Shown: piece by piece, positions 9,921 to 37,200 of the stretch
How the letters are laid out: every line of letters starts with the position of its first letter
Position numbering within the stretch: the first letter of the stretch is position 1
Virus record (IMG/VR): IMGVR_UViG_3300048837_001091
Span: 1 to 44,390 of that record
DNA from: a virus
Direction: 5' to 3' (one strand)
DNA length: 44,390 nucleotides
Made by a program: the position numbers and the translations under genes
Notes under the pieces: model-generated
Databases searched by the model: none
Told to the model about the DNA's origin: nothing
What the model saw: the letters and a program-made list of their open reading frames with translations, nothing else

Positions 9921-11544
9921 CGCTTGCGCCTCCTGCGTCGTCTGCCTTCTGGGCGGCGGCCAGGGCGGCCATCCGTGCGGCCCTCGACTCGTCGGTCTTC
10001 CGGTCGTTGTCGTCCTGGTCGCGGTCGTCGCGGTCCGTCTGGTCCTTGCGCCGTTCGCGGTTGTCCGGGTTTGCGCCGGCCTTGGGCCCCAGGCCCTCCC
10101 GCTCGCGCTCCTGCTGCACCAGCTTCTCCCAGCGGGCCATGTCCCGGGCCACCTGACGGGGGCTTCCGCCACGCTCGCCGATGACCTCCTGGGGGCTCCG
10201 CACGCCGTTGTCGATGTCCTCGCCGGCGGCCATGGCCTCCTGGGCGGGGTTGACGTACTCCCAGCCGGGGAAGCGCGGGGCGCACTTGTAGAGCCGCTCG
10301 CGGTCCTCGTTGATGGCCAGCCGCTGCTCTGGGGTCAGCGTGATGCGTCCCACGGCGATGGCCCAATCGATGACGCGCCGGCGCCACTGCTCGGTGTGGT
10401 CGGTCCAGACCCACCGCTGACGCGGGCGCCAGCCCTTGCGGGCGCTCAGACCCTCGGCCCGCTGGCTGGCGAAGTTCACGCGCGACCAGTCGCCGCTCAG
10501 CTCGGCGGTCGGCACGCCGGTGCCCCGGGCCATCCGACGCTGGAGGGCGTGGCCGAGCTGGTCGACCCCGGGCGCCTGCTGGCTGCCCTGGGCCACCTGC
10601 ATCGTGGTGCCCTCAGGCATGATGCCAACGATGCCGGGCTCCATCCGCATGACCGGGTCGCCCCTGCCATCGACCACGGCGGCGTTCTTGCCGTTCTTGG
10701 ATCGAAGGATCGTGTTGAACACGTTGGACGGCGAGGTGAAGAAAACGCCCAGGCTCAGCACCACCTTCAGCAGGGTGGCGAAGTCGTCGAGGATGGTCTT
10801 GTTGACACGGGCCGTGTCGATGACGCTGGTGGCCTCGGGCAGGCCGCGGATCTGGTTGGGCTCGCCGCCGAAGAACGTGAGCAGCGTGTCGCGAGCGTCG
10901 TACCGCTCGGTCTCCATGATCCGCATGCCCGGGTACCACCCGTCGTCGGGGTGCTCGACGTAGACCAGGTATCCCGAGACCCGGCCCTCGGAGTCGAACT
11001 CGACGCCATGTCGGACCTGGCGGCCGTTGTAGACGCCCGTGAGGGTGACGTCGACCCGCTCGGCCTCGATCAGTTCGATGGCCGGCATGGCGGGGTAGCC
11101 CTTCCAAGGCTTGGCCATGGTGTGGTGCACCGCCACGTCGCCGCCGTCGAAGCACTCCCCGTAGAACTGCCGCTGGCTCTCGGAGATCGTGGTGTCGCGG
11201 TCCTTGTTCACCGCGCGCCCGGCCCACTCCATGAGCTTGTCGATCGCTTCGTTGAGCTCGGGCCAGTCGGTGTCGGCCTCGCTGCCGATGCCCAGACCCA
11301 CGACGTTGTTCAGGTGGGCCTCGCGGGCCGCCTTGATGTTGGGGTCGCTCTTGGCCAGGAACCGGGCCTTGGCGCGGATGCGCGGCAGGTTGGACGCCTC
11401 GATGAGGGCATTGGGCCCGCGCGGGCTGGGCGCGAAGTCCGGGTCGGTGCGGTCGACGCGGCCGGCCTCCAGCCCGCCCCACGCGTTGGGCATGGCCACC
11501 TGCACCACACGCTGCACCGGTCGAAGGAAGCTCAGGAAGCTCAT
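9904..11544 (-). CDS. Portal protein (lambda gpB family)
   Basis: This 546-residue protein starts at ATG 11544 with an ATGA overlap on the gpW-like gene. It shows lambda portal features: an N-terminal region with LIEASNLPRIRAKARFLAKSD, the motif FDGGDVAVHH, then NNVVGLGIG and a membrane-like stretch near residue 275 that would be the crown or channel segment. The C-terminal 60 residues are highly charged (DRDDRDQDDNDRKTDE) and probably disordered. Twelve copies would form the DNA channel at the packaging vertex and bind terminase. Its 3' end overlaps the protease-capsid gene by 17 bases. Confidence 0.92.
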   Translation of the reverse strand: MSFLSFLRPVQRVVQVAMPNAWGGLEAGRVDRTDPDFAPSPRGPNALIEASNLPRIRAKARFLAKSDPNIKAAREAHLNNVVGLGIGSEADTDWPELNEAIDKLMEWAGRAVNKDRDTTISESQRQFYGECFDGGDVAVHHTMAKPWKGYPAMPAIELIEAERVDVTLTGVYNGRQVRHGVEFDSEGRVSGYLVYVEHPDDGWYPGMRIMETERYDARDTLLTFFGGEPNQIRGLPEATSVIDTARVNKTILDDFATLLKVVLSLGVFFTSPSNVFNTILRSKNGKNAAVVDGRGDPVMRMEPGIVGIMPEGTTMQVAQGSQQAPGVDQLGHALQRRMARGTGVPTAELSGDWSRVNFASQRAEGLSARKGWRPRQRWVWTDHTEQWRRRVIDWAIAVGRITLTPEQRLAINEDRERLYKCAPRFPGWEYVNPAQEAMAAGEDIDNGVRSPQEVIGERGGSPRQVARDMARWEKLVQQEREREGLGPKAGANPDNRERRKDQTDRDDRDQDDNDRKTDESRAARMAALAAAQKADDAGGASDAQAA

Positions 11545-12213: not shown

Positions 12214-14172
12214 CTAGAGCATGAACTGGGGCACGATGACGCCCTCGGAGGGGCCATCGTCGTACGCCAGCTCGTGGATCGAATCGAGTTCTAACGTGAT
12301 GGCCGCCACCGCCTCGGCGTAGGCCAGGGCCATCATCCAGTCGTCCCGCCCGTCCTTGATCTTCTCCCATTCCAGGCGGGGCGCTTCCCAACTGTGCTTC
12401 TGCTCGAGGGGGCGCAGCACGTTGGCGGTCATCTGGGCTTGGAAGTCGCGCGGCGGCCGGCACAGTACCGTCATGCGCGATTCGCTCACGCGCCGGGCCA
12501 CGCGGTCCACCCAGGGGTGGCGGTAGAGGTCGTACATGGGGATCTTGCCCAGCTCGGGCCGGGTCGGGTTGATGCGTTTCTTCTCGTCGCGCAGCTTGAA
12601 GGGCACGTCGCGGCCGACGCCGCCGGTCACAAACCGCATGGGCACCAGATCGATCCGGGCCGAGCTCACCTGGCTGTACAACACCGTCCGGCAGAGGTCC
12701 TTGATCACGTCGGGCGGCCACGCGTCATCGATGCCAACGGCATCCACGCCCATCCGGCTCATGCCCGTGGCCTGGTGGGGCTCGCCCAGGGCCACCGACA
12801 GGCTCGAAAGCCAGTCCAGCCACGCCGCCGAGCCCTTGATGGCCACGAGCTCGACAATGTGGGCGTGGCCCAGGCCGGACCACGCGACGGCGGCCGAGAC
12901 GAAGGTCGGGTTCTCGCGTGGGGCCTGGACGTCGGTGCCCACCGTGAGGAACCAGCACCCCTTGCGCCCGCCGGGCACCACGATCCGGTCGCTGACCTTG
13001 ATGACCGCCTCGACGGCGTTGGCGTCGATGACGGCCTCGCGCGGCTTGTAGGCCTCGCCACAGGCCACGTTCATGGCCGACTGCCGCTCGGCCTCATCCG
13101 GGGCGCCCTCGACCTTCCGGGCTAGGTTCACCACCGACACGTACGGGTCGACCAGGCCGTGCACGCCGAAGCCCAGGTAGTCCCGCTTGGCGGCTTCCTC
13201 GTCGCTCATGGGCGTCCAGCGCCGGCCCGTGCCACCCTCGCGCATGTCGGGGGGCCAGACCGCCCGCGCCCGCTCTTCGTCGGTGATGACGGCGTTGCAC
13301 CGGGCGCACCGCAGCTCGGCCGTCTCGGGGATCGGCTTGCCCTGCTCGTCGCTCTCGCGGAAGTGCACCAGGTCGTAGCTGGGGTCCACGACCTCGCCGC
13401 AGTGCGGGCAGTCGAAGACCCAGCGGCCCAGGTCGCTGAACTTGGTGAAGATCAGGTCGATGCCCTGGCCGTGCAGCGTGGGGTGGCTGAACATCCAGAT
13501 CTGCCGGTTGACCGACCGACTCGGCTGGCGCCCCAGCACGAAGTTGTGCAGGCCGCCGAACCGGCTGGGGAAGTTGGCCATGCACTGGTCGAGCTCGTCC
13601 ACGAAGATCGGGCCGTAGGTCCGGCTGCTCACCGCCGCGGCCGAGCCAGCGGCCGAGAAGTCGATGCCCCCGCCGCGGTATGGACGCTCGAGCAGGATCT
13701 GCCGCTGGTCGTCGGCCTTGGCTTCCTCGAACCGCTCGGCCAGGACCGGGATGGTCTTCACCAGCGGGTCCCACCGCTTGCTGACCTGGCTCTGGGCCTC
13801 TTCCTTGCGGCTGATGAGGTAGAGGATCGAGACGTCCTCGGTCGCCGCCAGGCACGCCATGATGTTCATGGTGGCCAGCGTGAAGCCCTTCTGGCTGGGC
13901 TTGATGACCACCACGCCCAGCTTGCCAGGGTTGTCGTAGATCAGGTCGTGGAACTCGCGGAGGAACGGCAGGTGGTCGCACCGGTAGGCGCCGGGGCGGT
14001 CGGCGCCCTGCTGGGATCCCAGCCGGACGTTCTCTTCGGCCCACTCGCTGGGGCGCCGGCGCACCCGGGGCGTGATCGACTTGCGGAACGCCTCGAGCAG
14101 CGGGATGTCCGCCCGGTCGAGGAAGCTCACGTCCAGCTCGGGGCGCTTGGGTCTCTTGGCCTTAGCGACCAC
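12214..14172 (-). CDS. terL: Terminase large subunit (lambda gpA family)
   Basis: This 652-residue protein starts at GTG 14172, overlapping the small-subunit gene by 11 bases. The N-terminal ATPase has a deviant Walker A (KPSQKGFT, residues 91-98) and Walker B with catalytic acid (PIFVDELD, 187-194). A zinc-knuckle pair follows (CPHC at 255-258, CARC at 289-292), which is characteristic of the gpA/PF05876 group. The C-terminal half holds the nuclease, with conserved acidic positions in GTDVQ and GRDDWMMALAYAEA. It pumps DNA through the portal and cuts the concatemer, probably at a cos-type site given the gpA affinity. Confidence 0.95.
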   Translation of the reverse strand: MVAKAKRPKRPELDVSFLDRADIPLLEAFRKSITPRVRRRPSEWAEENVRLGSQQGADRPGAYRCDHLPFLREFHDLIYDNPGKLGVVVIKPSQKGFTLATMNIMACLAATEDVSILYLISRKEEAQSQVSKRWDPLVKTIPVLAERFEEAKADDQRQILLERPYRGGGIDFSAAGSAAAVSSRTYGPIFVDELDQCMANFPSRFGGLHNFVLGRQPSRSVNRQIWMFSHPTLHGQGIDLIFTKFSDLGRWVFDCPHCGEVVDPSYDLVHFRESDEQGKPIPETAELRCARCNAVITDEERARAVWPPDMREGGTGRRWTPMSDEEAAKRDYLGFGVHGLVDPYVSVVNLARKVEGAPDEAERQSAMNVACGEAYKPREAVIDANAVEAVIKVSDRIVVPGGRKGCWFLTVGTDVQAPRENPTFVSAAVAWSGLGHAHIVELVAIKGSAAWLDWLSSLSVALGEPHQATGMSRMGVDAVGIDDAWPPDVIKDLCRTVLYSQVSSARIDLVPMRFVTGGVGRDVPFKLRDEKKRINPTRPELGKIPMYDLYRHPWVDRVARRVSESRMTVLCRPPRDFQAQMTANVLRPLEQKHSWEAPRLEWEKIKDGRDDWMMALAYAEAVAAITLELDSIHELAYDDGPSEGVIVPQFML

Positions 14173-14941
14173 CTAGATGGCCCTCCGCGCGCTGCACGGC
14201 CTGGCCGAGCTCGAGCATGCGCCGGTCTTCCACGTCTCGCACGGTCGATCGGGCGATCCGCACGAACTGCTCGCGCGGGCCGGGATCGACGCCGGCGGCG
14301 CGCAGGCTCTCGTACAGCCGGTCGGAGAGGTCCACGACCGAGGCCCGCGAGCCCGCCGAGACGATCGAGCCGATCTCCACGATGGCCCGGATGGCCTTGT
14401 TGCGGTCGATGAGCGTCTCGTCGCGCTCGGCCTCCTGGTCGAGGCGCCGGAAGATGGCGCTCGCAGTGGATTCCGCGCTCTTGATGGCCGTGGCGACCTG
14501 GCTGGCCGCCAGGGATCCGTCGCTCGTATTGAGGTCGGCCAGGAGCTTAGGAATCTTGGCGAGGATGCTCTCCCCGGTCTTGCGCCGGCCCTCGGGCGAC
14601 ATGTCGGGCTCTGTCTCTGACGGGGGCTCTGGCGGCTCTGGCTTGCCCTTCCCCCCCTTGGGCTTGGCCGGCTTGGACTTGCCGGGCTTGGACTGAGCCG
14701 GCGGCTTGGCTGGCTTGGGCTTGCCGGGCTTCGACGCGCCCCCCTTGGCCTTCTGATCGCTGGCGCTGAGCAGGCCCTTCTGCACCGCCCACGCCCGGAC
14801 CTCGCCCACGTCGAAGAGCAGCCGCGTGCCCTTGGCGTTGAGCTCGTGGGGGGCCTTGCGGTCCTTGACCCACTGCTGCAACACCCTGGGCGTGACGCCC
14901 AGTTGCGTTGCTGCTTGCGTGGTTGAGGTCTCGCGGGGCAC
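14162..14941 (-). CDS. Terminase small subunit (Nu1-like)
   Basis: This 259-residue protein starts at GTG 14941. Residues 5-55 form a winged helix-turn-helix of the Nu1/MerR type (AATQLGVTPRVLQQWVKDRK), which would bind packaging sites. A Lys/Pro-rich low-complexity linker of about 45 residues (repeats of KPGK and KPAKP) leads to a helical C-terminal region likely to contact the large subunit. Its place directly ahead of terL supports the assignment. The linker is unusually long for the family. Confidence 0.85.
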   Translation of the reverse strand: MPRETSTTQAATQLGVTPRVLQQWVKDRKAPHELNAKGTRLLFDVGEVRAWAVQKGLLSASDQKAKGGASKPGKPKPAKPPAQSKPGKSKPAKPKGGKGKPEPPEPPSETEPDMSPEGRRKTGESILAKIPKLLADLNTSDGSLAASQVATAIKSAESTASAIFRRLDQEAERDETLIDRNKAIRAIVEIGSIVSAGSRASVVDLSDRLYESLRAAGVDPGPREQFVRIARSTVRDVEDRRMLELGQAVQRAEGHLGGR

Positions 14942-17977: not shown

Positions 17978-18082
17978 TTGTGACGATTTTTTTAGCATTT
18001 GTTCACTTTTGTGCTTGACTATCGGGCACAAATTACCGATACTCGGACCATGTTGGTCACAACTGGTCACAACACGTCACAG
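17978..18082. promoter_or_regulatory. Repeated operator half-sites in the divergent switch region
   Basis: TTGTGAC (17978-17984) is the inverse of GTCACAA, which occurs at 18056 and 18066 and, as GTCACAG, at 18076: three copies exactly 10 bp apart on one helix face. TTTGTGC (18008-18014) and GCACAAA (18026-18032) form a 7-bp inverted repeat flanking the -35 box. These are probable binding sites for the XRE repressor and/or the rightward HTH protein. Confidence 0.6.
18015..18043 (+). promoter_or_regulatory. Rightward sigma70-like promoter (PR-type)
   Basis: TTGACT (18015-18020), a 17-base spacer and GATACT (18038-18043). The expected start site is at or next to the ATG at 18050, so the first transcript would be leaderless or nearly so. 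The -35 lies inside the operator inverted repeat, as expected for repression in the lysogen. Confidence 0.65.
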
Positions 18083-18388
18083 GTCATCGGGGTGCAGGAG
18101 GTTGCCAAGGCCCTCTCGCTGCACCCACAGACCATCCGCGAGATGGCCAGCGCCGGCGAGATCCCCGGGGCCAAGCGGCGCGGCACGCGCGGTAAGTGGC
18201 TCTTCCCCGCAACCGCGCCGGCCGACTACCTCGAGCAGAACTCCCCCCATCGCACCCAGACCAGCAGCTCTGGGGCGTCAACAGATGGGGCTCCCTCCGG
18301 GCCCGATCGCCAGGATGGCGACCAGCCGGCAGGAATGCCGGCGGGCTCTTTTGACTCCAACCCGGGCCAGCCGGCCCAGGAGGCCTGA
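18050..18388 (+). CDS. HTH_17/excisionase-type DNA-binding protein, first gene of the rightward operon
   Basis: I start it at ATG 18050, not at the longer frame start at 17999, because the promoter ends at 18043. The 112-residue protein has a MerR/Xis-like winged helix at residues 12-60 (VQEVAKALSLHPQTIREMAS, then the 'wing' RRGTRGKWLF). A Ser/Gly/Pro-rich tail of about 50 residues appears disordered. Position opposite the repressor suggests a Cro-like or activator role in the switch. A directionality-factor role is less likely since another Xis-type gene sits beside the integrase. Confidence 0.75.
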   Translation: MLVTTGHNTSQVIGVQEVAKALSLHPQTIREMASAGEIPGAKRRGTRGKWLFPATAPADYLEQNSPHRTQTSSSGASTDGAPSGPDRQDGDQPAGMPAGSFDSNPGQPAQEA

Positions 18389-18389
18389 C

Positions 18390-18611
18390 ATGGGCATGAT
18401 CGACACAGCCGCTCTCCGCGAGCCCGATTCGCTCCAACTCGGCATCGACGCTCGAGATGCCGCGGACGTGGCCAAACGAATCACCCGCGCCGTCGCCGGC
18501 GCGACTGCTGAACCGCATCGGGCCCACCAGGGGCACCGCGAGCAACCCGTGCATGGGAACAGGGGCGACCGCATGTCCGACCCCGGGGTCTTCACAGGGC
18601 CCGTTATCTAG
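18390..18611 (+). CDS. Small hypothetical protein, 73 aa
   Basis: ATG 18390 follows the preceding stop by one base and the frame ends in TAG at 18611. The peptide has a helical first half (DARDAADVAKRITRAVAG) and a polar His/Arg-rich second half. No domain was recognised. A perfect 14-bp inverted repeat arm (18537-18550) lies inside it, so the region may have an RNA-level function instead of, or as well as, coding. Confidence 0.5.
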   Translation: MGMIDTAALREPDSLQLGIDARDAADVAKRITRAVAGATAEPHRAHQGHREQPVHGNRGDRMSDPGVFTGPVI

Positions 18612-18652
18612 CCCGGTCCCGCGCGGCCGGGTGCCCGAACGGGTTGCTCGCG
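18537..18652. repeat. 14-bp perfect inverted repeat upstream of the tRNA
   Basis: CGCGAGCAACCCGT (18537-18550) pairs with ACGGGTTGCTCGCG (18639-18652) across 88 bases. In RNA it would close a large domain ending just ahead of the tRNA. A further hairpin, GCCTGG/CCAGGC, lies directly before the tRNA. Confidence 0.55.
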
Positions 18653-18679
18653 CGGTCCCGCCTGGGAGCCCAGGCAGTT

Positions 18680-18752
18680 TGCGGGGTAGAGCAGTGGCCA
18701 GCTTGCCGGGCTCATATCCCGGAGGTCCCTGGTTCGAATCCAGGTCTCGCAA
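18680..18752 (+). tRNA. tRNA-Met(CAT), initiator type
   Basis: This 73-nt cloverleaf has a 7-bp acceptor stem (TGCGGGG/TCTCGCA, two G-U), D arm GAGC/GCTT, anticodon stem CCGGG/CCCGG with loop CTCATAT (anticodon CAT, 18713-18715), variable loop AGGTC, T arm CCTGG/CCAGG and discriminator A; CCA is not encoded. Initiator hallmarks are three G-C pairs below the anticodon loop and the A11-U24 pair in the D stem. Elongator tRNA-Met and tRNA-Ile2 lack both. The first pair is a weak U1-A72, in place of the usual bacterial C1xA72 mismatch. Confidence 0.93.
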
Positions 18753-18754
18753 TT

Positions 18755-18836
18755 CCGGCCTCAACGCCGGAGAAACATCCCGGCTCAAACGGCCGGGTCA
18801 CTAAGAAGCCGGCGTGTCCCCGGGTAAGCGCCCGGG
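18755..18836 (+). other. Array of three GC-rich hairpins downstream of the tRNA
   Basis: CCGGC/GCCGG (18755-18770), CCCGGC/GCCGGG (18779-18797) and CCCGGG/CCCGGG (18819-18836) follow one another with loops TCAAC-, TCAAACG and TAAGCG. They may help tRNA 3' processing, stabilise the operon mRNA or terminate weakly. No open frame is convincing between 18612 and 18878. Confidence 0.55.
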
Positions 18837-18878
18837 CGCTGGTTTGCAGAATCACACACGCACCAGGAGCATCGAACC

Positions 18879-20501: not shown

Positions 20502-20738
20502 CACGGCAGGCGCGGCTTGGTCTGGCCAGGCGTGACTTGGTGAGGCAAGGCGTGGCATGGCAGGCACGACACGGCCCGGTGCGGAATCGTGAGGCAGGGC
20601 CGGGCATGGCACGGCAGGCATGGATAGGCAAGGCACGAATTGGCGGTACAAGGCCAGGATTGGCATGGCAGGCACGGCGAGGTCCGGCATGGCCCAGTAA
20701 GGCACGTCACGCCAGGGCGCGGCAGGCATCTTGCCCAA
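20502..20738 (+). repeat. Degenerate 5-bp-periodic GGCNN array
   Basis: About 235 bases consist almost wholly of overlapping units such as GGCAT, GGCAC, GGCAG, AGGCA and TGGCA, G-rich on the plus strand and held in a 5-bp register with occasional slips. There is no plausible protein in any frame; open frames give repetitive Arg/Gly/Pro text. It fills most of the 293-base gap between 20501 and 20795. The rest of the gap holds a short ACCGGGACACCGGT-type inverted repeat and the next RBS. Confidence 0.85.
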
Positions 20739-24766: not shown

Positions 24767-25707
24767 CGGCGGTGGACTGCGCGATTCGGGCGGTGGCGCC
24801 ATGGTTCGGTGCGAAGCGCCGCATGGCAGAGATGATCGTCGCCGAGTTGGGCGAGCATGACAGCTACGTCGAGCCGTTTTGCGGCTCCTGCGCCGTGCTG
24901 CTCGGCAAACAACAGGTCAGCTTCGAGACCGTGAACGACCTCCACGGTGACCTGACCCACCTGCTCCGGTGCCTCCAGGATGAGGCCGTGGCGCTCTGGC
25001 TGTACGGACAGACCGCACGGACGTGCATGGCCGAGGGCTTGCTGAAGGACGCCCACGAGCTGCTCGGCGGATCTCCGCCGCCAGACATGGGCGCTCCGGT
25101 CGACCGCCACCGCGCGTACGCCTATCTGATCCAGAGCTGGATGATGCGGTCCGGCGTGTCCGGAACCAAACTCGGAGAGGTCTCAGGGGTCAGCTCGTGC
25201 ATCGCAACGAGGTTCACCACCGGCGGAGGATCCCCAACCGTTCGTTGGACCTCGATGGTCGAGAGCATTCCCGCGTGGCACCTTCGGCTCCGGAGCGTCG
25301 TGGTGCTCCGCCGAGATGCTTTCGCGCTCATCGAGCAGATTGACGACAAGTCTGGCGTGGTGATCTACCTAGACCCGCCATATCTGGCGGGATCTCGCAC
25401 CGGACTGGACCGCGCCAGCGGAAAGGCGGCCTACCTCCACGAGTTCGAGGCCGGCGGCGTCGGGATCTTCGGCCACGTGGACGACCACACCCGCCTGGCC
25501 GACGCCCTGGGCCGCTTCAAGCGGGCCCGGGTCGTCGTCAGCTACTACGCCCACCCCCGCCTGGCGGAGCTCTACCCGGGCTGGACCGTGCGCGACTGCA
25601 CCCAGAACAAGAACATGAGCAACTTCACTGGCCGCGGCGAGCGCTACTCCAAGTCGCCCGAGGTTCTGTTGATCAACGGGCCCAGCTACACCGGCGGTGG
25701 CTCATGA
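24763..25707 (+). CDS. DNA adenine N6-methyltransferase (D12/Dam class)
   Basis: This 314-residue enzyme begins at ATG 24763 (ATGA overlap). It has PWFGAKRRM (residues 13-21) and the AdoMet-binding EPFCGSCAV (37-45), a cysteine-rich variant of the usual FxGxG. The catalytic DPPY is at 204-207, and a C-terminal SKSPEVLLIN segment closes the domain. Order and size fit phage Dam-type enzymes. It may mask GATC-like or other sites from host restriction, or mark replication status. Confidence 0.92.
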   Translation: MTAVDCAIRAVAPWFGAKRRMAEMIVAELGEHDSYVEPFCGSCAVLLGKQQVSFETVNDLHGDLTHLLRCLQDEAVALWLYGQTARTCMAEGLLKDAHELLGGSPPPDMGAPVDRHRAYAYLIQSWMMRSGVSGTKLGEVSGVSSCIATRFTTGGGSPTVRWTSMVESIPAWHLRLRSVVVLRRDAFALIEQIDDKSGVVIYLDPPYLAGSRTGLDRASGKAAYLHEFEAGGVGIFGHVDDHTRLADALGRFKRARVVVSYYAHPRLAELYPGWTVRDCTQNKNMSNFTGRGERYSKSPEVLLINGPSYTGGGS

Positions 25708-26807
25708 GTAAGGCCCCCGGCATCTTCATCCAGCTCAAGACCACGATCATCCACGATGACAAGCTCGCCGCGGCGGGCCCTGAGGCCACGTGCCTGTACG
25801 TCAAGGGCCTCTGCTGGGCGAAGGAACACCTGACCGATGGCGAGGTCCGGCGTGGCGCCCTGGCCATCCTGGGGGCCGGCATCAGCGACCCAGAGGCCGC
25901 CGCGCAGCGCCTCGTGGACAACCACCTGTGGACCGTGACCGAGAACGGCTGGACGGTCGGCTCCGAGCGGTGGGCCAGGCACCAGGAAACCAAGGCCCAG
26001 GTCGACGCCCGCCGAGAGGCCGACCGAGAGCGCAAGAAGGCCGGCAAGAAGGTCACAAAGAAGGTCGCGAAGACCACGAAACCGAAGGCGTCAGGAATCC
26101 GCGAGGATTCCGGGCGGAATCCGAGCGGAAGCAAACCGGAATCCGCGACGAGTCGGGACGGATTCCAGCATACAGACACATATCCAGAGACAGAGACAGA
26201 GACAGAATCACCACCACCACGCGCGAGCAAACGCGAACCCGAACCGGCTGCGCCGGGTGGTGGTGGTGGTGAGTGCGCTGGATTCGAGGGGGATCTGGAC
26301 ACGGCTGTCGCCGCCCTGACGGCGCTCCGCGTGAACCGGGCCACGTCCCACGCCCGGCAGGCGGGCAGCGAGCGGGCGGTGCTCTACGCCATCGAGCGGG
26401 CCCGCGAGCCCGGCGTGAAGAACCGGGCCGCCATGGCGGTCCAGCTCATCCGCGACGGCGAGAAGCCGCCGGCGGGCTGGCGATCGCGGGGCGAGATCGA
26501 TGCCGCCAGCGCCGAGCGCAACCGCCAGGCCGATCGCGATCAGGCCGTCGATCTGGCACAGCGGAAGCGCGAGTACGAACGCAACGTCGCCGAGATCGCG
26601 TTGATCAAGGCCCACCAGGACATCGCCATGCAAGCCGCCGAGCAGGTCGCCAAGGGCGACAGCTTCTCGGCCAGGACGCTCAGATCCAGGCCCAAGCGTG
26701 ATTGGGTGCTCAACCCGCTCTGCCGTGCCGAGGTCCTGGACGCGATCGAGAAAGAAACCGGAGACACCGTCGAGGCGCTGCTGGCCAGCGGGAGGGAATC
26801 AGCGTGA
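25704..26807 (+). CDS. Phage replication initiator-like protein (O-type)
   Basis: ATG 25704 (ATGA overlap) gives 367 residues. The N-terminal 100 residues resemble the winged-helix start of phage replication proteins (FIQLKTTIIHDDKLAAAGPEA, CWAKEHLTDGEVRRGAL). A low-complexity linker follows (KKAGKKVTKKVAKTTK, TETETES, poly-Gly). Residues 190-300 are helical and Arg/Ala-rich. Lambda O-like proteins often carry the origin within their own coding sequence in such linkers; this one has imperfect repeats at 26160-26270 (GACAGAGACAGAGACAGA; a ggtggt run). Helicase loading by host factors would be needed. Confidence 0.7.
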   Translation: MSKAPGIFIQLKTTIIHDDKLAAAGPEATCLYVKGLCWAKEHLTDGEVRRGALAILGAGISDPEAAAQRLVDNHLWTVTENGWTVGSERWARHQETKAQVDARREADRERKKAGKKVTKKVAKTTKPKASGIREDSGRNPSGSKPESATSRDGFQHTDTYPETETETESPPPRASKREPEPAAPGGGGGECAGFEGDLDTAVAALTALRVNRATSHARQAGSERAVLYAIERAREPGVKNRAAMAVQLIRDGEKPPAGWRSRGEIDAASAERNRQADRDQAVDLAQRKREYERNVAEIALIKAHQDIAMQAAEQVAKGDSFSARTLRSRPKRDWVLNPLCRAEVLDAIEKETGDTVEALLASGRESA

Positions 26808-27339: not shown

Positions 27340-28715
27340 AGGTCGACCTCACGATCAACAAGGCCCGCGGCGTCCAGCGCACGGACATCGAGTGGGCCGA
27401 CTACTCGGCCAACCCCATCCGGGCCCGCGACCGCGTCACGGGCGAGGTCGGATGGGCCTGCCGCAAGGTCAGCGCCGGCTGCGCGAACTGCTACGCCGAG
27501 GCGCTCAACAAGCGCTTCGGCACCAAGCACCCCTACACCGCCGCCGGGCTCGGCCAGGTCGAGCAGGTGCTCGATGAGGGCGTGCTCCGCAAGCTGCTGA
27601 CCATGCGGCCGCGGGGCCCGTTCAATAACGGCCGGGAGCGTCCGGCGGTGTTCCTGGGCGACATGATGGACCTGTTCTACGGCGACGAGGCCGACGAGCG
27701 GGCCGCCAAGGCCGCCGGCGTGCCCTTCGCCCCGATCCCCTTCGACATGCTCGACCGCCTCTTCGCCGTCATGGCGCTGCGCACCGACATCGACTTCCTG
27801 CTGCTGACCAAGCGGCCTGGGCGGATGCGGGAGTATTTCGAGGCACACCCCGACTTTGACCGCGCCTTGGACAGACTCCCGGGCGCTGCGGACATCGACA
27901 TCGATGGCACCCATCTCAAGTGCGTCCAAGACTCGACGGGCGAATACGAGGTCGTGACGCGGGTTTGGCCCCTGCCCAACGTCTGGGGCGGCACGAGCGT
28001 CGAGAGCGACGCCGTGATCAATCGCGTCGATGAGCTGCGTAAGTGCCGCCTGGCCGTCCGCTTCCTGAGCTGCGAGCCGCTGATTGGCAAGCTGAACCTC
28101 AACGGCATGCTTCGCAAGTCGCAGAGGCGTCATATCGGGGCGTGTATAAACGGCCTGCTGCGCAACCGCCAATTCGACTGCTTGCAGCACGACGACGGCA
28201 CGCCGATGACGCCGGCAGAGGCCGAGGCTGACCTCAGGCAGCTTCAGATCGAAGGCGTTGAAGTCATCCCCTGCGTCGGCCGCGACAAGTGCCCCGACTT
28301 CCACCCCAAGACCGGCTGCCCTGGCCACCCCCAGGCCGGCATCGACTGGGTCATCGTCGGCGGCGAGAGCGGCCGCGGCGCCCGGCCGTGCGATCTGGCG
28401 TGGATCCGCGGCGTGGTCGAGCAGTGCCGCGAGGCGAAGGTGCCCTGCTTCGTGAAGCAGCTCGGATATTGGATCCAAGGCCCGCACGACTTCGATGGCT
28501 GGCATGGTGCCATCGATCGATTCCTGCTGAAGTCCGAAGATGGATCCACGGCCACCTGGCACCGTCCAGTACTCCGATCCGAGCTCCACCCAGAACGCTT
28601 TGACGAGCGCCCGCGCAACGCGATCGCGTGGGGCTTGGGCGACCCCAAGGGCGGCGACCCGGCCGAATGGCCCCAGGACCTCCGCGTCCGCCAGATCCCC
28701 GGGGGTGGCCAGTGA
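27336..28715 (+). CDS. DUF5131 (phage Gp37/Gp68 family) protein
   Basis: This 459-residue protein starts at GTG 27336. Family features are IEWADYSANPI (target motif near residue 18), the cysteine cluster VSAGCANCYAEALNKRF, VFLGDMMDLF, LLLTKRPGRM, VWGGTSVES, RFLSCEPLIG, DWVIVGGESGRGARP and VPCFVKQLG. These follow a TIM-barrel-like order and resemble radical-SAM-type barrels, with the Cys trio as a possible metal site. The family is widespread in phages and prophages and biochemically uncharacterised. An insertion of about 55 residues with further Cys/His residues (CVGRDKCPDFHPKTGCPGH) looks like an extra zinc finger. Confidence 0.88.
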   Translation: MKVDLTINKARGVQRTDIEWADYSANPIRARDRVTGEVGWACRKVSAGCANCYAEALNKRFGTKHPYTAAGLGQVEQVLDEGVLRKLLTMRPRGPFNNGRERPAVFLGDMMDLFYGDEADERAAKAAGVPFAPIPFDMLDRLFAVMALRTDIDFLLLTKRPGRMREYFEAHPDFDRALDRLPGAADIDIDGTHLKCVQDSTGEYEVVTRVWPLPNVWGGTSVESDAVINRVDELRKCRLAVRFLSCEPLIGKLNLNGMLRKSQRRHIGACINGLLRNRQFDCLQHDDGTPMTPAEAEADLRQLQIEGVEVIPCVGRDKCPDFHPKTGCPGHPQAGIDWVIVGGESGRGARPCDLAWIRGVVEQCREAKVPCFVKQLGYWIQGPHDFDGWHGAIDRFLLKSEDGSTATWHRPVLRSELHPERFDERPRNAIAWGLGDPKGGDPAEWPQDLRVRQIPGGGQ

Positions 28716-29939: not shown

Positions 29940-30289
29940 ACCAGCCCGCATGGCTCGAAGCCGAGCAAGCCCAGGCCGCCGAGCGCCGGCACGACCGCCT
30001 CTGCCGCGCCGCCGCCGAGGCTGTGGGTTGGGGCGGTGTGACCAAGCAGCGTCTGTGCGGGCTTCTGTCGTGCGGCATGGTCGACGCCGGCAAGATGCTC
30101 GACGAATTGATCCGGCTGAACATCTGCGACGTCCGCTATGACGCCGAGGACCTCGCGCGAGTCGACTGGTACCCGGTCAATCGCGAGTTCCTCGAGAAGT
30201 GCCGCGATGGCGCCCACCCGGGCCCGTTCGGCGGCGATCACCTGGTCGAGGTCGTCAAGGGCATTCTGAGCAAGGAGGGATCGTCGTGA
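29936..30289 (+). CDS. Hypothetical protein, winged-helix-like, 117 aa
   Basis: ATG 29936 (ATGA overlap). After a helical N-terminus the segment GVTKQRLCGLLSCGMVDAGKMLDELIRLNICDVRYD has the helix-turn-helix and beta-wing rhythm of a winged helix. The remainder is acidic. It sits just ahead of the excisionase-like gene and might regulate integration, but no homologous family was recognised. Confidence 0.6.
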   Translation: MNQPAWLEAEQAQAAERRHDRLCRAAAEAVGWGGVTKQRLCGLLSCGMVDAGKMLDELIRLNICDVRYDAEDLARVDWYPVNREFLEKCRDGAHPGPFGGDHLVEVVKGILSKEGSS

Positions 30290-30528
30290 TCCAGCAGCAG
30301 GAGCAGGAACGCGAATACCATGGTGAAGAATTGCTGCTGGAGCCGTGGGAGGCCGCCGAGGCCCTCAAGATCAGCGCCAGCCAGCTTGAGAAGTGGACCA
30401 GCCAGAATCTGGTGCCATCGGTCAAGCTGGGAAGGCTGAGACGGTACTCTCCAGACGCACTCAAGGCATGGATCGCCAAAGGATGCCCGATGGAACCGCA
30501 AGGCAGCGGCGAAGTCGGGGAAAGGTGA
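30286..30528 (+). CDS. Excisionase-like HTH_17 protein
   Basis: This 80-residue protein starts at GTG 30286, preceded by AAGGAGGGATC. Residues 17-70 form a winged HTH: LEPWEAAEALKISASQLEKW, then LVPSVKLGRLRRYSPDALKAWI. The spacing of 4 bases to the integrase supports a recombination directionality factor that bends attachment-site DNA. Confidence 0.8.
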   Translation: MIQQQEQEREYHGEELLLEPWEAAEALKISASQLEKWTSQNLVPSVKLGRLRRYSPDALKAWIAKGCPMEPQGSGEVGER

Positions 30529-30532
30529 TCCC

Positions 30533-31921
30533 ATGGCCAGCCTGACCCAAGCCAAGAAGACCGGCGCGTGGCGCATCCTGTTCTTTGACGACCGAGGCCG
30601 GCAGACTGTGCACCTGGGCAAGATGGACGAGGCCACCGCGCGCACGATCTTCGGGCACGTCGACCACCTCTGCACCGCCGCCACGACCGGCACGCCACCG
30701 CACCGAAGCACGACGGTCTGGCTGTCCCAATTGGGCGGCAAGATGCATGGTCGGATCGCCGCGGCCGGACTGGTGGAGCCCCGGGAGCCGGAGTCTCTGG
30801 CGACGGTGGGGGAGCTGGTCGAGCGATTCGTGGACGCCGCGAACGTGAGCGAGGTCACCCTGGACGCCTACCGGCAGACCACCAGGAACCTGGTCGAGTT
30901 CTTTGGCGCCGACGCCGAGATCGCGGTCCTGACGCCAGAGGACGCGGCGCTATGGTGTCGGTCTCTGGCTGACGGTGGCTACGCCAGGGCGACGCAATCG
31001 AAGCGCACCAAGGTCGCCAAGCGGATTTTCCAGCAGGCTGTGGAGTGGGGGCTGCTCGACGCCAGCCCATTCGCCAGCATCCGGCCCGGGACGCAACGGA
31101 ACCCAGAACGGACCGAGTACATCCCTGTCGAGCACATCGAGCGCGTCATCGACCAATGCCCCGATGCGTCGTGGCGGGCCAGGATCGGTCTGTGCCGCTA
31201 CGCGGCCCTCCGATGCCCATCCGAGCTCCACGCGCTGACCTGGGCCGACGTCGACCTCGTGAACCGCCGCCTGACGGTCCGGCCCGCGAAGACGCGCAAC
31301 CACGAGACCGGCCAGATCCGACTCGTGCCGATCACGCCCAGGCTGGCCGAGCTGCTCGAGGATCTGTACGAGTTAGCCGAGCCGGGCGATGACCAGATCT
31401 TCCCCGACATGACTTCGCAGACCAATCTTGGCCCGCCGATGGCCAAGATGGTTGTTCGTGCCGGGCTCAAGCCCTGGCCCCGCCTGATGCAGAACCTCCG
31501 GGCGAGCTGCGCGATCGACTGGCATAGCGAGTACCCAGAGAAGGACGCATCGTCGTGGGTTGGCCACAGCCCGCTGGTGGCCTCGCTGCACTACCTCAAG
31601 CCCCGCGATGAGAACTTCCGCAAGGCCACCGGATTGCCGAGCGCGCAGATTCCTACGCAGCAGGCGACCACAGACAACCACAGGCGACCACACCAGAAAC
31701 CGACCGAACCGCCCTCTTGTGGCCACCGAGGGCCCCTTACGGCCGCCCGTGGTTGGGATGTGTCAGTAGAAGTAGGCCCGGAGGGACTTGAACCGCCCCT
31801 GGAATCGCCGAGCGAAACCGCCGGCTTCGGCCCGTGCGCGCAGATTCCGACGCGCGCGGTTTCCCCAGTCATTCAGACAGCACTCGCGTGGGCAGCCGCC
31901 CCCCATCCATGGGGTCGGTGA
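30533..31921 (+). CDS. int: Tyrosine integrase with attP in its 3' tail
   Basis: ATG 30533 gives 462 residues. An N-terminal SAM-like core-binding domain spans about 90-185. The catalytic domain carries Arg227 (ALRCPSELHALTW), Lys253 (PAKTRN), QxxR at 320-323 where HxxR is usual, His345 (VGHS) and nucleophile Tyr354 (HYLKPRDE). The NLRAS box at 321-325 resembles planctomycete integrases. Residues after about 372 are low complexity; GPEGLEPPLES is the kind of tail produced when the gene runs through a tRNA-derived attachment site. The enzyme would integrate the phage into a host tRNA gene with host-type accessory factors. Confidence 0.92.
   Translation: MASLTQAKKTGAWRILFFDDRGRQTVHLGKMDEATARTIFGHVDHLCTAATTGTPPHRSTTVWLSQLGGKMHGRIAAAGLVEPREPESLATVGELVERFVDAANVSEVTLDAYRQTTRNLVEFFGADAEIAVLTPEDAALWCRSLADGGYARATQSKRTKVAKRIFQQAVEWGLLDASPFASIRPGTQRNPERTEYIPVEHIERVIDQCPDASWRARIGLCRYAALRCPSELHALTWADVDLVNRRLTVRPAKTRNHETGQIRLVPITPRLAELLEDLYELAEPGDDQIFPDMTSQTNLGPPMAKMVVRAGLKPWPRLMQNLRASCAIDWHSEYPEKDASSWVGHSPLVASLHYLKPRDENFRKATGLPSAQIPTQQATTDNHRRPHQKPTEPPSCGHRGPLTAARGWDVSVEVGPEGLEPPLESPSETAGFGPCAQIPTRAVSPVIQTALAWAAAPHPWGR
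31772..31794. other. Putative attP core (tRNA 3'-end identity)
   Basis: The reverse strand reads GGTTCAAGTCCCTCCGGGCC, which is a T-loop plus 3' acceptor strand of a tRNA, ending in CTAC. The 5' half of the T stem does not pair fully, as expected if only the 3' end of the tRNA is duplicated in the phage. It lies in the last part of int, where many temperate phages place attP. Confidence 0.55.
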
Positions 31922-31952
31922 GCTGTCGCGCAATCAGGAAGGAACCAGCACG

Positions 31953-32985: not shown

Positions 32986-33062
32986 TCCAGAAGGGCCAGC
33001 CGATCCGGGGGACGGATCTGCTCTACCATGAGGTATTGGCGAAGGGGAGGGTTGCGGGATGA
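32982..33062 (+). CDS. 26-residue ORF
   Basis: ATGA overlaps at both ends (32982 and 33059) place this tiny frame in register with the coupled operon. The peptide begins MIQKGQPIRGTDLL. It may be a coupling leader. Confidence 0.4.
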   Translation: MIQKGQPIRGTDLLYHEVLAKGRVAG

Positions 33063-33268
33063 GCACCATTCGAGATCGAAACGCGTCCGAGGCTGCCGAG
33101 AGGATCAGGGCCAAGAAACTTGAGCTTGAAGCCAGGTTCGAGGACCACCCCGAGCAGCAGAGAGAGCTCGTGGGAGAGTTCGCCAACTTCGTGGCCCGCG
33201 AATGCGTGTCGACCGTAGTTCAAACTGCGATCGAAGAGGTTGTGGCCAAGGGGATGGTTGCATCATGA
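33059..33268 (+). CDS. Hypothetical helical protein, 69 aa
   Basis: ATG 33059 (ATGA overlap). The sequence is mostly charged helix (ASEAAERIRAKKLELEARF) with a hydrophobic second half (EFANFVARECVSTVVQTAIEEVV). No family was recognised. Confidence 0.6.
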   Translation: MSTIRDRNASEAAERIRAKKLELEARFEDHPEQQRELVGEFANFVARECVSTVVQTAIEEVVAKGMVAS

Positions 33269-33723
33269 GTGAGCCGGACTCCGAGAAAACGTACGACTCC
33301 ATGGCCTTCAGGTATAGCCGTAGGCCGCATACTGAAGTCGAAGATGACGAAGCCTGTATTTCTGGCGAAGTCGAAGTGAAACGATGGCAGGATGATGGCC
33401 ACGTCTATTACGCGATCTACAACGAACGACATGGCATCCGCGACGTCCAGGTGGTAGATCTCGAGCCGGACGTCGCGGTCGATGTCGCGCGAGCCATCCT
33501 GGAACTGGCTGGCGAGGGCGGAGACCAGAAGCCGCCAAAGCTGATGAACGGTCTAGAAGTTCTAGAAGCTCTCGGAAGCAGGGGCCCAGGCAGTTTCAAA
33601 TGGCTTCAACAGAAAACCAAGTCCGGTGAAATCCCCTGCGTCAAGATTGGCAAGACTTACAGATACAGCCTAGCTGCTGTTGAGAGTGCCATTCTCAAAA
33701 TGGCCGATGGCGAAACGGCCTGA
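33265..33723 (+). CDS. Protein with C-terminal HTH_17-like domain, 152 aa
   Basis: I start it at ATG 33265 (ATGA overlap), not at the longer frame start at 33202. Residues 10-85 are acidic and beta-rich. Residues 95-150 form an excisionase/MerR-like winged helix (EVLEALGSRGPGSFKWLQQK, then IPCVKIGKTYRYSLAAVES). Its base composition is visibly less GC-rich than its neighbours. It ends the rightward operon, 33 bases before the terminator stem, and may be a late-acting regulator. Confidence 0.75.
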   Translation: MSEPDSEKTYDSMAFRYSRRPHTEVEDDEACISGEVEVKRWQDDGHVYYAIYNERHGIRDVQVVDLEPDVAVDVARAILELAGEGGDQKPPKLMNGLEVLEALGSRGPGSFKWLQQKTKSGEIPCVKIGKTYRYSLAAVESAILKMADGETA

Positions 33724-33827
33724 TTCGCGTTTCGCGTTTCCATCAGAGTATAAAAAGCCGGTTTTCCTCGGGAAAACTGGCATTTTTGCCCTTTGAGTCA
33801 TGGGGTCAAAAACGCGAAACGCGAATC
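33722..33827. repeat. 18-bp perfect inverted repeat enclosing the terminator
   Basis: GATTCGCGTTTCGCGTTT (33722-33739) and its exact reverse complement (33810-33827) flank 70 bases holding the terminator hairpin. Each arm contains a tandem TTCGCG(T). The repeat is longer than a terminator needs, so it may also be a protein-binding or recombination site. Confidence 0.8.
33757..33787. terminator. Bidirectional rho-independent terminator
   Basis: GCCGGTTTTCC and GGAAAACTGGC form an 11-bp stem with one G-U pair and a TCG loop (33757-33781). AAAAA precedes it and TTTTT follows (33783-33787), so it would work for both the rightward and the leftward transcript. Confidence 0.85.
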
Positions 33828-33888
33828 CATAAATCGGGCCACCCCAGCATTTGTGCGCACGTCGCCTCGCGACCTGATACCAGGGGGT

Positions 33889-33915
33889 GGGGGTCCGGTA
33901 GTACCTACCGCCCCC
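33889..33915. other. GC hairpin downstream of the last leftward gene
   Basis: CGGTAG/CTACCG with TAC loop, extended by GGGGG/CCCCC past a 2-base bulge. It lies 14 bases beyond the stop at 33930 on the minus strand. It may protect the late mRNA 3' end; the rest of the 33828-33929 gap has no gene. Confidence 0.5.
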
Positions 33916-33929
33916 CGTACCCCAGGGAG

Positions 33930-34256
33930 TCAGGCTGGGGCCGCCGGCACGGCCGTCCAGGCCGACCGGCTGGCGTGGCCTTGCACCAGACTCTCGACGC
34001 ACACCACGCGGCTGCCACCGCCGATGTCGGCCTCGAGCAGCCAGTCGTCGCTGTCGCCGATCTGACGACGCGTGAGGGTGACCTGCTCACCGATCGGCAC
34101 CGGATCACGTCCGCCCTTCTCTCGCATCTCAAAGCCTGCCTGATCGAAGGCCTGTACCACGAGCTGCACGAGCTTGCGGTCGATGCCTTGCCGCTCGAGG
34201 CGGGCGAGGATCCGCGTCAGTACTTCGGACGCGGTGACTTCACGCGGGTCGGCCAT
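33930..34256 (-). CDS. Hypothetical protein at the end of the late operon, 108 aa
   Basis: ATG 34256 is preceded by AGGAGAAGCC. Residues 8-50 are helical (ASEVLTRILARLERQGIDRKL), and the rest is beta-rich (EQVTLTRRQIGDSDDWLLEADIGGG). It follows the J-like fibre, where lambda-like phages carry fibre, exclusion or accessory virion genes. No function is assignable. Confidence 0.65.
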   Translation of the reverse strand: MADPREVTASEVLTRILARLERQGIDRKLVQLVVQAFDQAGFEMREKGGRDPVPIGEQVTLTRRQIGDSDDWLLEADIGGGSRVVCVESLVQGHASRSAWTAVPAAPA

Positions 34257-34264
34257 GGCTTCTC

Positions 34265-37200
34265 CTAGCTCACGAGGGTGGCGTGGAACGCGGCGAGAGC
34301 TGGCCTGTAGGGTGCGCTCTGTCGCTCGAGGGTAATGCGGATCTGGAACTTGCCAATGGTGGCGTCATAGCTCGTGAAGGGCGGCCACTCGGTCCACGAC
34401 CCGAAGCTGGCGTTGGCGGCCGTGCGAATCTCGACCTTGTAGCCGATGCGTGCGTCCGGGAAGGGCGGCATCAGCATGCCCACCACACGGTCGGGGTCGT
34501 TGTCTACGACGCCCCACTGGTCGGCCTCGATGCTGGGGATCTTCTCGGGATAGTCGGCCAGCGTTGGGTCGTCGGTGTCGTTGCCCGTCAGGATGCGGTG
34601 CATGAACGTCGTCAGCTCGGCCGAGCCCACGACGACCTCTGGGCTCTCCCACACACCGGGCTCGTCTGGGTCGGTCAGCTCGAGGCGTGAGGTCGTGGCG
34701 TTCCAGGTCAGGTTGGTCAGCGTTCCATCGGTGGACAGGTCTGGGTCGTAGGTGTCGCGCACGGATTTGCCGGCCGGCAGGTTGGAGTGGTTCAGCGTCT
34801 CATCGGTGGCCGTCCACGACAGTCGGCCGCTGGGGCCCACGCTGCGGACCCACCATCGGTGGTCGATGTCGGGGGCAACGACCAGGCCGGTCAGCTCAGG
34901 ATCGACGGTCCTGGCCAGCACGTAGCAGTCCTCGGCCCCGTCGTTGGGCAGGGCGGTGCCCGCATTTGGCCCGCCATACAGCACCTGGTAGCCCACGGCG
35001 CCGGTCACCGCGTCCCAAGTCAGCGAGTACGTCGATCCGGCCTCCTGCGTGGCCGTGACGGTGGCCGGGGGAGGGGGCGGCAGTTCGCCCAGGCCGAAGG
35101 CGATGCCCGTCTTGGGCACGCTGGGGTCGTATGGGCTCAGGAATCGGCCCAGGTAGCTCACGGCCACCACGGCGAAGTCGTAGCCGATGTCGCGGTCGTC
35201 GATTTCGATGATCGAGCCGCGCCGGCTTACCTTGGGATCTGGCACCAGCACCCACGTGGTCGTGCCCACGCGCCTGCGGTAGATCCGGAAGCTGGCCGTG
35301 ATGAGCTGATCCTCGGCCTTCTGACGCCACGCCAGCTCGATGACGCTGATGTCGTTGATGACCTTCTCGAAGGCCACCAGGTCGAGCACGGGCCCGGGCG
35401 TGCGCAGCTTGTCGTCGAGGCTCGAGTAGGGCGGGAACGTGACGTCGCCGACGACCTCGTTGTAGACGTCCTCGTCGTACTCCAGGCCGGCGACTTCCCA
35501 TGCCAGGGCGCCATCGAGCTCCACGGGCCGGACCTCGGTGCACGTGAAGGGCTTCACCTGGATGCCGCTCTCGCCGAGCTGGTATTCCTCGTCGGCCAGC
35601 GCCGGCGTCGAGAACGCGCTGGCGAGCTGGATTTCCTGCCCCCTGGCGTAGACGCCGGGAGGGCTCACGACCTGGCGGACCTCGATGCCGTTGTCCAGGT
35701 GGTGCACCTGCACGACGTACTGCCGGCCGCTCACCAGCTCCACGGTGCGGTCGAGCTTGATGCGGTTGCCCACGGCGTCGCCGGCCAGGCGGCCCGACTT
35801 GCCCCAACCCGTCAGGTCAAACGACAGGTCGAACCGCTCCCCGGGCTGGAGCATGACCATGGGCCGGATGGTGACGAAACGCACGCTTCGGGTCAGGAAG
35901 CGGGTGCGGTCCATGATGTAGGCGGCCTCGGCGGCGGCCTGGTCGGGGTCGGTCACGCCGTCGAGCCTCACCTGGTTCTCGCGGACGGGCTCGGTCTCCA
36001 GCCACAGCTCCCCGTATTCAGGCAAACCCACGGCGTCCGGCAGGCCCCCCGCGTTGGCGTTCTCGAACTGCACCACGGTGCGATTGGGTCGATTGCGCCC
36101 GCCAGTGGCATCCTCGCGCTGGTATGACCACTGGGCCACGCCGTTCTCATCGACGGCGATTGAGCCATCGCCAAAGGTCTCGATCGCCACGGTCTGGGGC
36201 TTGTCGACGATGAACCGCACCACGCCGCCGGCCGTCGCCGGCGAGCAGCGCCCGGCCCGGCAGATCTGCCGGAGCCAGTCCCAGCCGTTCTGCTGGCGGT
36301 CCAGGGCGAAGTGGTGGCGGAACCGCTGGCGTGTGCCCCCGCCTGGCCTGTCGACGACCTCATCGCAATACTGAGCCCAGGCGAACAGGCTGGGCATGTC
36401 GATGCGCGAGTCGCCGTAGGTGGCGCCCAGGCCCCAGGTCGTGTTGGTCAGCAGCTCCAGGGCGTGCCAGGCCGGGTTGTCCGTTGCGGCTGTGATGAAC
36501 GTGGGGTCGGTGGGGTCGCTGACCCCATCCCACACCCGGCAACGCAGGCCGTTGATGTCCGCGGAGACACGTGGAACGCCTGCAATCTCTTCGCCCGCCG
36601 TCAGCTCGAGGGCCAGCATGGCCAGGCCGGCGTACCGCTGGCTGTCGTAGGTTTGTTCCACCAGGCTGTCCCAGACCATCTGGTCGGCGCCCTGGGCCGG
36701 ATCGACCTCGGCGGTGATCCGCTCAACCTCGATGTCGAGCTGGGTCGGCGTCTCCACCAGGAAGTCCAGGCGCCCGGCGCTGGTGAACTCGCTCTGCTCG
36801 GCCCGCTCCACCGTGCGCGTGATCCAATCAGACCAGTCACCCGGCCCGGCAGTCTCGCGCCAGCGGACACGGTACTGCACGTTCCTGGGATCGATCTGGG
36901 AGCCGTTCAGCTCGTAGAGGCCCAGGGGGAAGCGGATGCGGGGCACAAGAGCCTGTACGGGCCCGCTCGTGGTCACCTGGAACGCCGTGCTGGGCTCGAG
37001 GGTGACGCCACCCACCCCCACGTCTCTCAGGGCGCTGGGGTTGTCGAAGCCCGGAATGGCGGCCTGGTCGTCGGCGCCCATGCGGCCCCAGGCCCGCACC
37101 CCGGTGAAGTTGCTGATGGGCTGGTCGTTCAGGTAGATCCCGGCCAGGGCGCTGCTGTCCACGTTGTCGAAGTCGGCCACCTGGTTGCCGATGGCCTGGA

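Follow-up and report, generated by a model that had tools for sequence, protein, structure and literature searches.

The 18-bp inverted repeat analysed here forms part of a non-coding cassette of three related sites that, as judged from aligned sequences, is kept in two related phages although the genes around it change. We put at about even the chance that this cassette is a cos or packaging-initiation region of the GpA/Nu1 type, in which the arms of the repeat would be binding sites. The window, that is the whole stretch of DNA that was analysed (44,390 nt), is an IMG/VR virus record with a 127-nt repeat at its ends, an overlap by which it closes to a circle; it is a circular temperate phage, the host of which is probably of planctomycete type. 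The late genes (TerS, TerL, portal and head protein, with the tape measure and the gpJ tail protein lying across the joint of the circle) are found on the minus strand, the integrase and, judged by the open reading frames, the remaining early genes on the plus strand, and the two blocks converge on positions 33724-33929 between gene ends at 33723 and 33930 (Table 1). Elsewhere in the window, a 927-aa open reading frame at 7389-10172 joins an S49-type protease to a major capsid domain, and three imperfect direct copies (66-72% alike, 54 nt spacing) rich in GGCATGGC and GGCAGGC words occupy 20543-20729.

Table 1. Positions of the cassette and of the genes considered with it
Feature	Position in window	Strand	Remarks
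Terminase large subunit (TerL), GpA family (ATPase and nuclease)	12214..14172	-	PF05876 E 2.4e-37, PF20454 E 1.2e-12
Probable TerS with N-terminal winged HTH	14162..14941	-	phrog_57 E 1.3e-4; weak Nu1 match; model
HTH_17 proteins	17999-18388; 30199-30528		Other DNA-binding candidates of the window phage
Replication initiator	25704-26807		7 kb from the cassette
Core of the attachment site, within the integrase gene's 3' end (tRNA 3' end 31773-31793)	31762..31794		Present at both ends of the G096 prophage
Last gene of the plus operon, 173 aa; partial HTH_17 match below cut-off	33202..33723	+	Arm b begins within its stop codon
Site a (R1-like), remnant GCGAAACG, 8 nt	33710..33717	-	Opposite to b; overlaps the last codons of the upstream gene
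Site b (R2-like), left arm; two overlapping TTCGCGTTT cores	33722..33739	+	G096 L160:6323-6336; G368 L206:730-742
Inner hairpin with A-tract and T-tract	33752..33787		Terminator score on both strands; this form is specific to the window
Site c (R3-like), right arm; two overlapping cores	33810..33827	-	Four heptads in G096
Conserved non-coding block adjoining c; candidate cosN (possibly cosQ)	33841..33911		From the alignment of three
Dyad GTCGC-CTC-GCGAC	33861..33873		Identical in all three; preceded by palindrome GTGCGCAC (33853-33860)
Small gene that closes the convergent late (tail) operon; lies downstream of gpJ	33930..34256	-	65% identical in G096

The inverted repeat and its inner hairpin

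The original prediction described a perfect 18-bp inverted repeat, with arms 70 nt apart, enclosing a bidirectional terminator. The repeat is real and beyond chance: the right arm AAACGCGAAACGCGAATC is the exact reverse complement of the left arm GATTCGCGTTTCGCGTTT, a scan by script found no longer perfect inverted repeat in the window at spacers up to about 100 nt, and at such spacers none of 60 order-1 Markov shuffles reached 18 bp, the best giving 16 once. The last two bases of the plus-strand gene's stop codon also serve as the first two of the left arm. Each arm contains two copies of a tandem unit, as had been claimed, the true unit being the heptad TTCGCGT rather than TTCGCG.

The hairpin between the arms (33757-33781, with an A-tract at 33752-33756 and a T-tract at 33783-33787) has a terminator-like score on both strands, in a scan that returned two sites in a 1.6-kb region compared with 0.9 expected in shuffles. 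In this phage it probably also terminates transcription between two convergent operons. The RNA of 33715-33840 is predicted to fold at -61.4 kcal/mol (z -8.2). A transcript stopped at the inner T-tract lacks the far arm, which leaves read-through RNA as the only transcript able to form the outer stem.

Three related sites in three phages

Relatives were reached through the tRNA 3' end, a 21-mer of which (31773-31793) is found in at least 119 stretches, mostly alphaproteobacterial; one of them, L070, is labelled Pirellulaceae, and we took the integrase tail to be planctomycete-like and hence used the genome of L070 as entry point, a choice supported by the relatives G096 and G368 that were later found. 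Among 294 genomes of the phylum, 28 match the integrase with an E of at most 1e-20. In G096 the integrase is split, with residues 1-433 (79%, one internal stop) lying 42 kb from residues 406-462 (85%), and window positions 31762-31794 recur at both ends, which identifies an integrated relative. The C-terminus of gpJ is matched in 8 of 163 genomes of the family, including G368 (86%) and G096 (83%), the others (G360, G404, G376, G342, G301 and G336) showing 37-52% identity. With the cassette DNA itself as query (33766-33925), the 163 genomes gave G368 (86%), G096 (82%) and a weak 27-nt match in G443, and 400 genomes of the order, which overlap the 163, gave G096 and G368 only.

The cassettes of the window, G096 and G368 all carry three TTCGCGTTT-based sites, named a, b and c in the order of their positions, of which b is inverted; the arms of the repeat are b and c. 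In the alignment of three, a variable stretch separates the inverted site b from site c, and a near-unchanged block lies beyond c; in the relatives b is preceded by a. Site a is longer there (G096 L160:6292-6309, G368 L206:692-709), the 8 nt of the window being weak alone. Copy number differs between sites and phages: the window has two TTCGCGTTT cores each in b and c, G096 one in a, one in b and four in c, and G368 two in a, one in b and three in c. The cassette accounts for four of the five copies of this 9-mer in the window, for all six found over 48 kb at the G096 locus, and for all six in the 5.75-kb stretch L206 of G368.

The left neighbour genes are unrelated in all three phages; the product of 33202..33723 has no tblastn match in the G096 stretches, and in G368 a different gene lies upstream of the cassette. 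On the right, where G368 is rearranged, the neighbours are plus-strand open reading frames that include an inverted tape-measure gene, and gpJ is 3.3 kb away. Identity to the window is 86% (G368) and 82% (G096) over the cassette and 82% and 75% over the flanking late DNA. By this comparison the cassette has been retained next to changing neighbours. Since the arm motif is kept as sequence next to unrelated left neighbours, a role as a DNA binding site is favoured. The original prediction had named non-conservation of the arms as evidence against itself, and both close relatives keep them; of the two roles in DNA that it had offered, protein binding gains from the arm sequence shared by three phages, and resolution has nothing in its favour, integration using the tRNA 3' end 2 kb away.

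Several identities of the repeat were rejected on these data. It is not an attP, attachment or resolution site, as the ends of the G096 prophage match 31762-31794 and not the repeat, and inspection by eye showed no target duplication of the kind expected of transposon-like ends. Nor is it a dispersed host repeat: over the 294 genomes the motif gave 56 matches in 47 genomes compared with 48 for the reversed control (hand tally), and all four copies of GCGTTTCGCGTTT in the 3.6-Mb genome G096 lie within the cassette. The pattern CGCGTTTCG...CGAAACGCG was found in three of the 294 genomes, apparently by chance. The same arm pair occurs in one further IMG/VR contig (L023), which is apparently unrelated and has it as a tandem 27-nt repeat. 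The arm motif alone is present in 16 IMG/VR stretches, and the DNA examined showed no inverted partner for it in any of them. TTTCGCG heptad arrays were also seen in apparently unrelated viral contigs (L013:2500-2540, L014:4859-5915, which is long, and L012:412-430).

The cassette was not found in the six remaining, more distant gpJ relatives at the sensitivity of the DNA search, and ten stretches from four of these six contained one core 9-mer and no dyad. G342 encodes a GpA TerL (40%); it shows no match to the TerS of the window, the HTH-like segment of the preceding gene differs by eye, and the stretches examined contain neither cores nor dyad. Viral scans with gpJ and TerS alignments revealed no new phage, the sole TerS match being 100% identical and located on another contig of the same phage, and in a phage collection window 33000-34600 was unmatched by blastn and 1-25000 by megablast.

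Comparison of the loci yielded further observations. In L206:983-3658 of G368 the tape-measure gene is inverted beside the gpJ end relative to the window and G096, a rearrangement or misassembly that adjoins the cassette. Stop codons inside the gpJ and integrase matches of G096 (L160, L161) indicate that this prophage may be decaying. Positions 28337-28465 of the window are identical to G096 L161:1985-2113 at 128 of 129 nt, within a DUF5131 gene with less similar surroundings, reflecting recent exchange or unusual constraint. The att core lies inside the 3' end of the integrase gene (window 31762-31930, L160:2461-2629), and as the C-terminal tail of the integrase is encoded across the tRNA 3' end, integration alters the end of the protein. 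Another contig of this phage, L019 (31,885 nt), stops within the att core, at window 31788, which would be expected of a sample containing both integrated and free forms.

Comparison with packaging sites

The block beside site c varies little: 33844-33911 is 94% identical to G096 and 88% to G368 (hand count from the alignment), with identical runs of 33 nt between the window and G096 (33847-33879) and of 28 nt between the window and G368, the latter common to all three (33852-33879). A run of 33 nt is not exceptional for the pair with G096, which shares exact matches of 44, 53 and 63 nt elsewhere, mostly in genes. In all three phages the centre of the dyad lies 53 bp from the centre of one core of c and 46 bp from that of another; the dyad was chosen after the alignment, and the heptad array offers several registers, so that the agreement at 53 bp is partly favoured. 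Rfam contains no family matching the cassette up to E 1, and inspection of the cassette by eye identified neither an IHF-type site nor a cosQ.

PMC4669245 and PMC9026076 give complex cosB the order R3-I1-R2-R1, in which R2 faces the other way from R3 and R1; these two sources and PMC6739421 describe cosN as two-fold symmetric at 10 of 16 bp and its distance to cosB as crucial. According to PMC9026076, bp 55-63 of lambda R3 interact with TerS; the midpoint of this segment is 52.5 bp from that of the 12-bp cosN, compared with 53 bp in the cassette. Read from the dyad side the cassette runs c(+), b(-), a(+), the same order as R3, R2 and R1 of lambda, where R2 and R1 form an inverted repeat (25 nt, 84%). 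The arrangement with the middle site opposite to both others is complete in two of the three phages, the window having only the 8-nt remnant of a. With the cos regions of lambda, phi80, 21 and Gifsy-1, which have a complex cosB, the system shares a GpA-family TerL, a winged-helix TerS, a non-coding region of about 200 bp and three related sites with the middle one inverted; a symmetric candidate for cosN lies about 53 bp from the nearest. Unlike those of lambda, the sites are tandem heptads of variable copy number, a is degenerate in the window, and the cassette, which follows the last tail gene and is close to att, has no significant cohesive-end match.

The terminase proteins were assessed separately. 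The large subunit belongs to the GpA family, both Pfam domains matching above cut-off, and the portal was assigned to the lambda family by profile search. The probable small subunit matches the terminase small subunit family phrog_57 ahead of the excisionase/regulator family phrog_66 (E 7.6e-4), although the second match also counts against the assignment. Its HTH_17 match falls below the Pfam cut-off, and BLASTP against lambda Nu1 gave a weak, collinear match of 25% across 52 aa, with E 2e-4 in this pairwise comparison. A winged-helix model of low confidence (pLDDT 65) found no fold match at E 0.001 or better; the best was RacA, followed by BldC, and 7lw0 and 7lwr (titled viral DNA packaging) appeared among the weak matches behind them; the fold matches as a whole are of a general MerR type. 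We regard a Nu1-like winged-helix TerS as predicted with moderate confidence. Its segment LGVTPRVLQQWVK is identical in the window and G096.

The cassette lies about 19 kb from terS and not directly upstream of it, the usual though not essential location; the start of terS is 191 bp away from the end in lambda and 89 bp away in N15. Here the open reading frame upstream of terS begins 6 nt away, which leaves no room for cos. The packaging-site reading is supported by the GpA TerL, the lambda-family portal and the winged-helix gene ahead of TerL, and by the case of G342, where a GpA TerL without a match to this TerS goes with stretches that contain neither cores nor dyad. The records of P2 and 186 place cos next to the portal gene with its terminator (annotated tQ/tW), so cos can adjoin another late gene; unlike in P2 and 186, the terminase here is of the GpA family. 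Compared with known cohesive ends, the dyad region was not distinguished: 28 places in the window, the dyad among them, match the P2 19-mer end at least as well, and 217 match the lambda 12-mer end at least as well, so that the likeness of a dyad strand to the P2 end (13 of 19 letters) is not significant and was rejected. This places the cassette outside the group with lambda-like cohesive ends and limits the claim to a region that would work like a GpA/Nu1 cos. Also to be set against the packaging-site reading are the shortness of site a in the window and the size of the comparison, which covers three phages, with TerS compared in the window and G096.

If the reading is correct, a, b and c would be putative binding sites for the phage's own TerS, arranged like lambda cosB (R3, inverted R2, R1). 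A TerS dimer might bind c and b across a bend in the DNA between them and place the large subunit on the dyad, the candidate position for its staggered nicks, and packaging would proceed leftward, towards a, the plus-strand genes and att.

A second conserved non-coding region, 18389-18878, may be the cos instead. It shares 63 identical nt with G096, and in it a phage tRNA-Met(CAT) is closely preceded by a perfect inverted repeat of 14 nt, CGCGAGCAACCCGT, with arms 88 nt apart (87 in G096). Its fold (z -2.9) and position beside the tRNA suggest a possible structured RNA; tRNA aside, no Rfam family reaches gathering level.

Other readings of the cassette and consequences

The cassette could be a DNA control region of another kind, an operator or promoter for a phage regulator such as another HTH_17 protein, or a replication origin; we consider this unlikely, at roughly one chance in five. 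The palindromes GTGCGCAC and GTCGC-CTC-GCGAC and the repeated cores would suit a DNA-binding protein, and the phage encodes two further HTH_17 proteins and an initiator (Table 1). Yet the initiator gene lies at a distance, the neighbours of the cassette are swapped between phages, as would not be expected of the operator of one gene, and a simple scan for sigma-70-type sites found none at the G096 or G368 cassette; the scan gave the window a single promoter-like site, which lies between c and the hairpin on the minus strand and is directed to the left, into the hairpin.

It is similarly improbable, at a little under one in five, that the cassette is only a bidirectional terminator between convergent operons, with the outer arms as an accessory stem without separate function. 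The convergent gene ends, the score on both strands, the very stable fold and an AT skew that switches sign at the cassette, as expected where two operons meet, all fit this explanation, and with a plain bidirectional intrinsic terminator the window shares an A-tract/T-tract hairpin between convergent genes. The hairpin is not kept, however. In G368 the inner region (L206:740-805) folds at z +0.99 with a broken T-tract, G096 has a weaker hairpin with a T-run and no A-tract (z -1.4), and the scan that scored both strands in the window scored no site in the G096 and G368 cassettes, while the arms and the block 33841-33911 are retained. The long nested palindrome is consequently the window phage's own version. 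A hairpin of a with b, stable in both relatives (z -3.6 to -4.6), could serve instead; in G368, though, the cassette lies between plus-strand open reading frames, so that no convergence exists right there. Outer arms are moreover superfluous for termination, and the conserved block is left unexplained. On the aligned sequences, the terminator is an extra of the window phage and the conserved function lies elsewhere in the cassette. The original interpretation is partly borne out, the arms probably being more than a transcription stop and the terminator not the conserved part.

Retroregulation as at lambda sib, where RNase III cleaves the stem of a read-through transcript, would have the outer stem of read-through RNA serve as an RNase III target and the upstream mRNA degraded. 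At sib, as here, the sequence around a terminator can pair only once transcription has read through, and int, att and element follow one another in the order seen in the window; pairing of b with c is possible in all three phages (18, 14 and 12 bp). Unlike at sib, int is distant, ending 1.8 kb away, and a conserved DNA block lies alongside. The three sequences show no compensatory changes and the number of heptads is unequal between partners (four in c of G096); in G368 the whole stretch has a lowest-energy fold in which a is paired with b, a centroid in which b is paired with c, and an ordinary stability (z -1.25, no better than shuffles). We regard this explanation as very improbable. Hardly any weight falls on a functionless palindrome produced by heptad slippage and template switching, for although copy number varies (2 versus 4) and heptad arrays exist in the unrelated contigs L013 and L014, the motif is not dispersed in G096, its count over the phylum is near that of the reversed control, and order and orientation are equal in three phages with different neighbours.

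Returning to the packaging-site reading, a stronger form of it is possible though doubtful: a relocated cos of a new type, in which TerS would read arrays of a 7-bp unit with drifting copy number (2 versus 4), the cassette would be a mobile module between unrelated genes, and in the window the two main TerS sites and an intrinsic terminator would form one 106-bp palindrome, serving as packaging start and transcription stop. If the packaging-site reading is true, a GpA-type cos can sit far from the terminase genes, and a terminator enclosed by a long inverted repeat is no sure sign that the repeat serves transcription. Repeated TerS sites with the middle one inverted and a dyad about 53 bp off would then provide a signature by which packaging sites of uncultured phages could be recognized from sequence alone, and phages with planctomycete-type hosts would have in the cassette a packaging start that can be put to the test.
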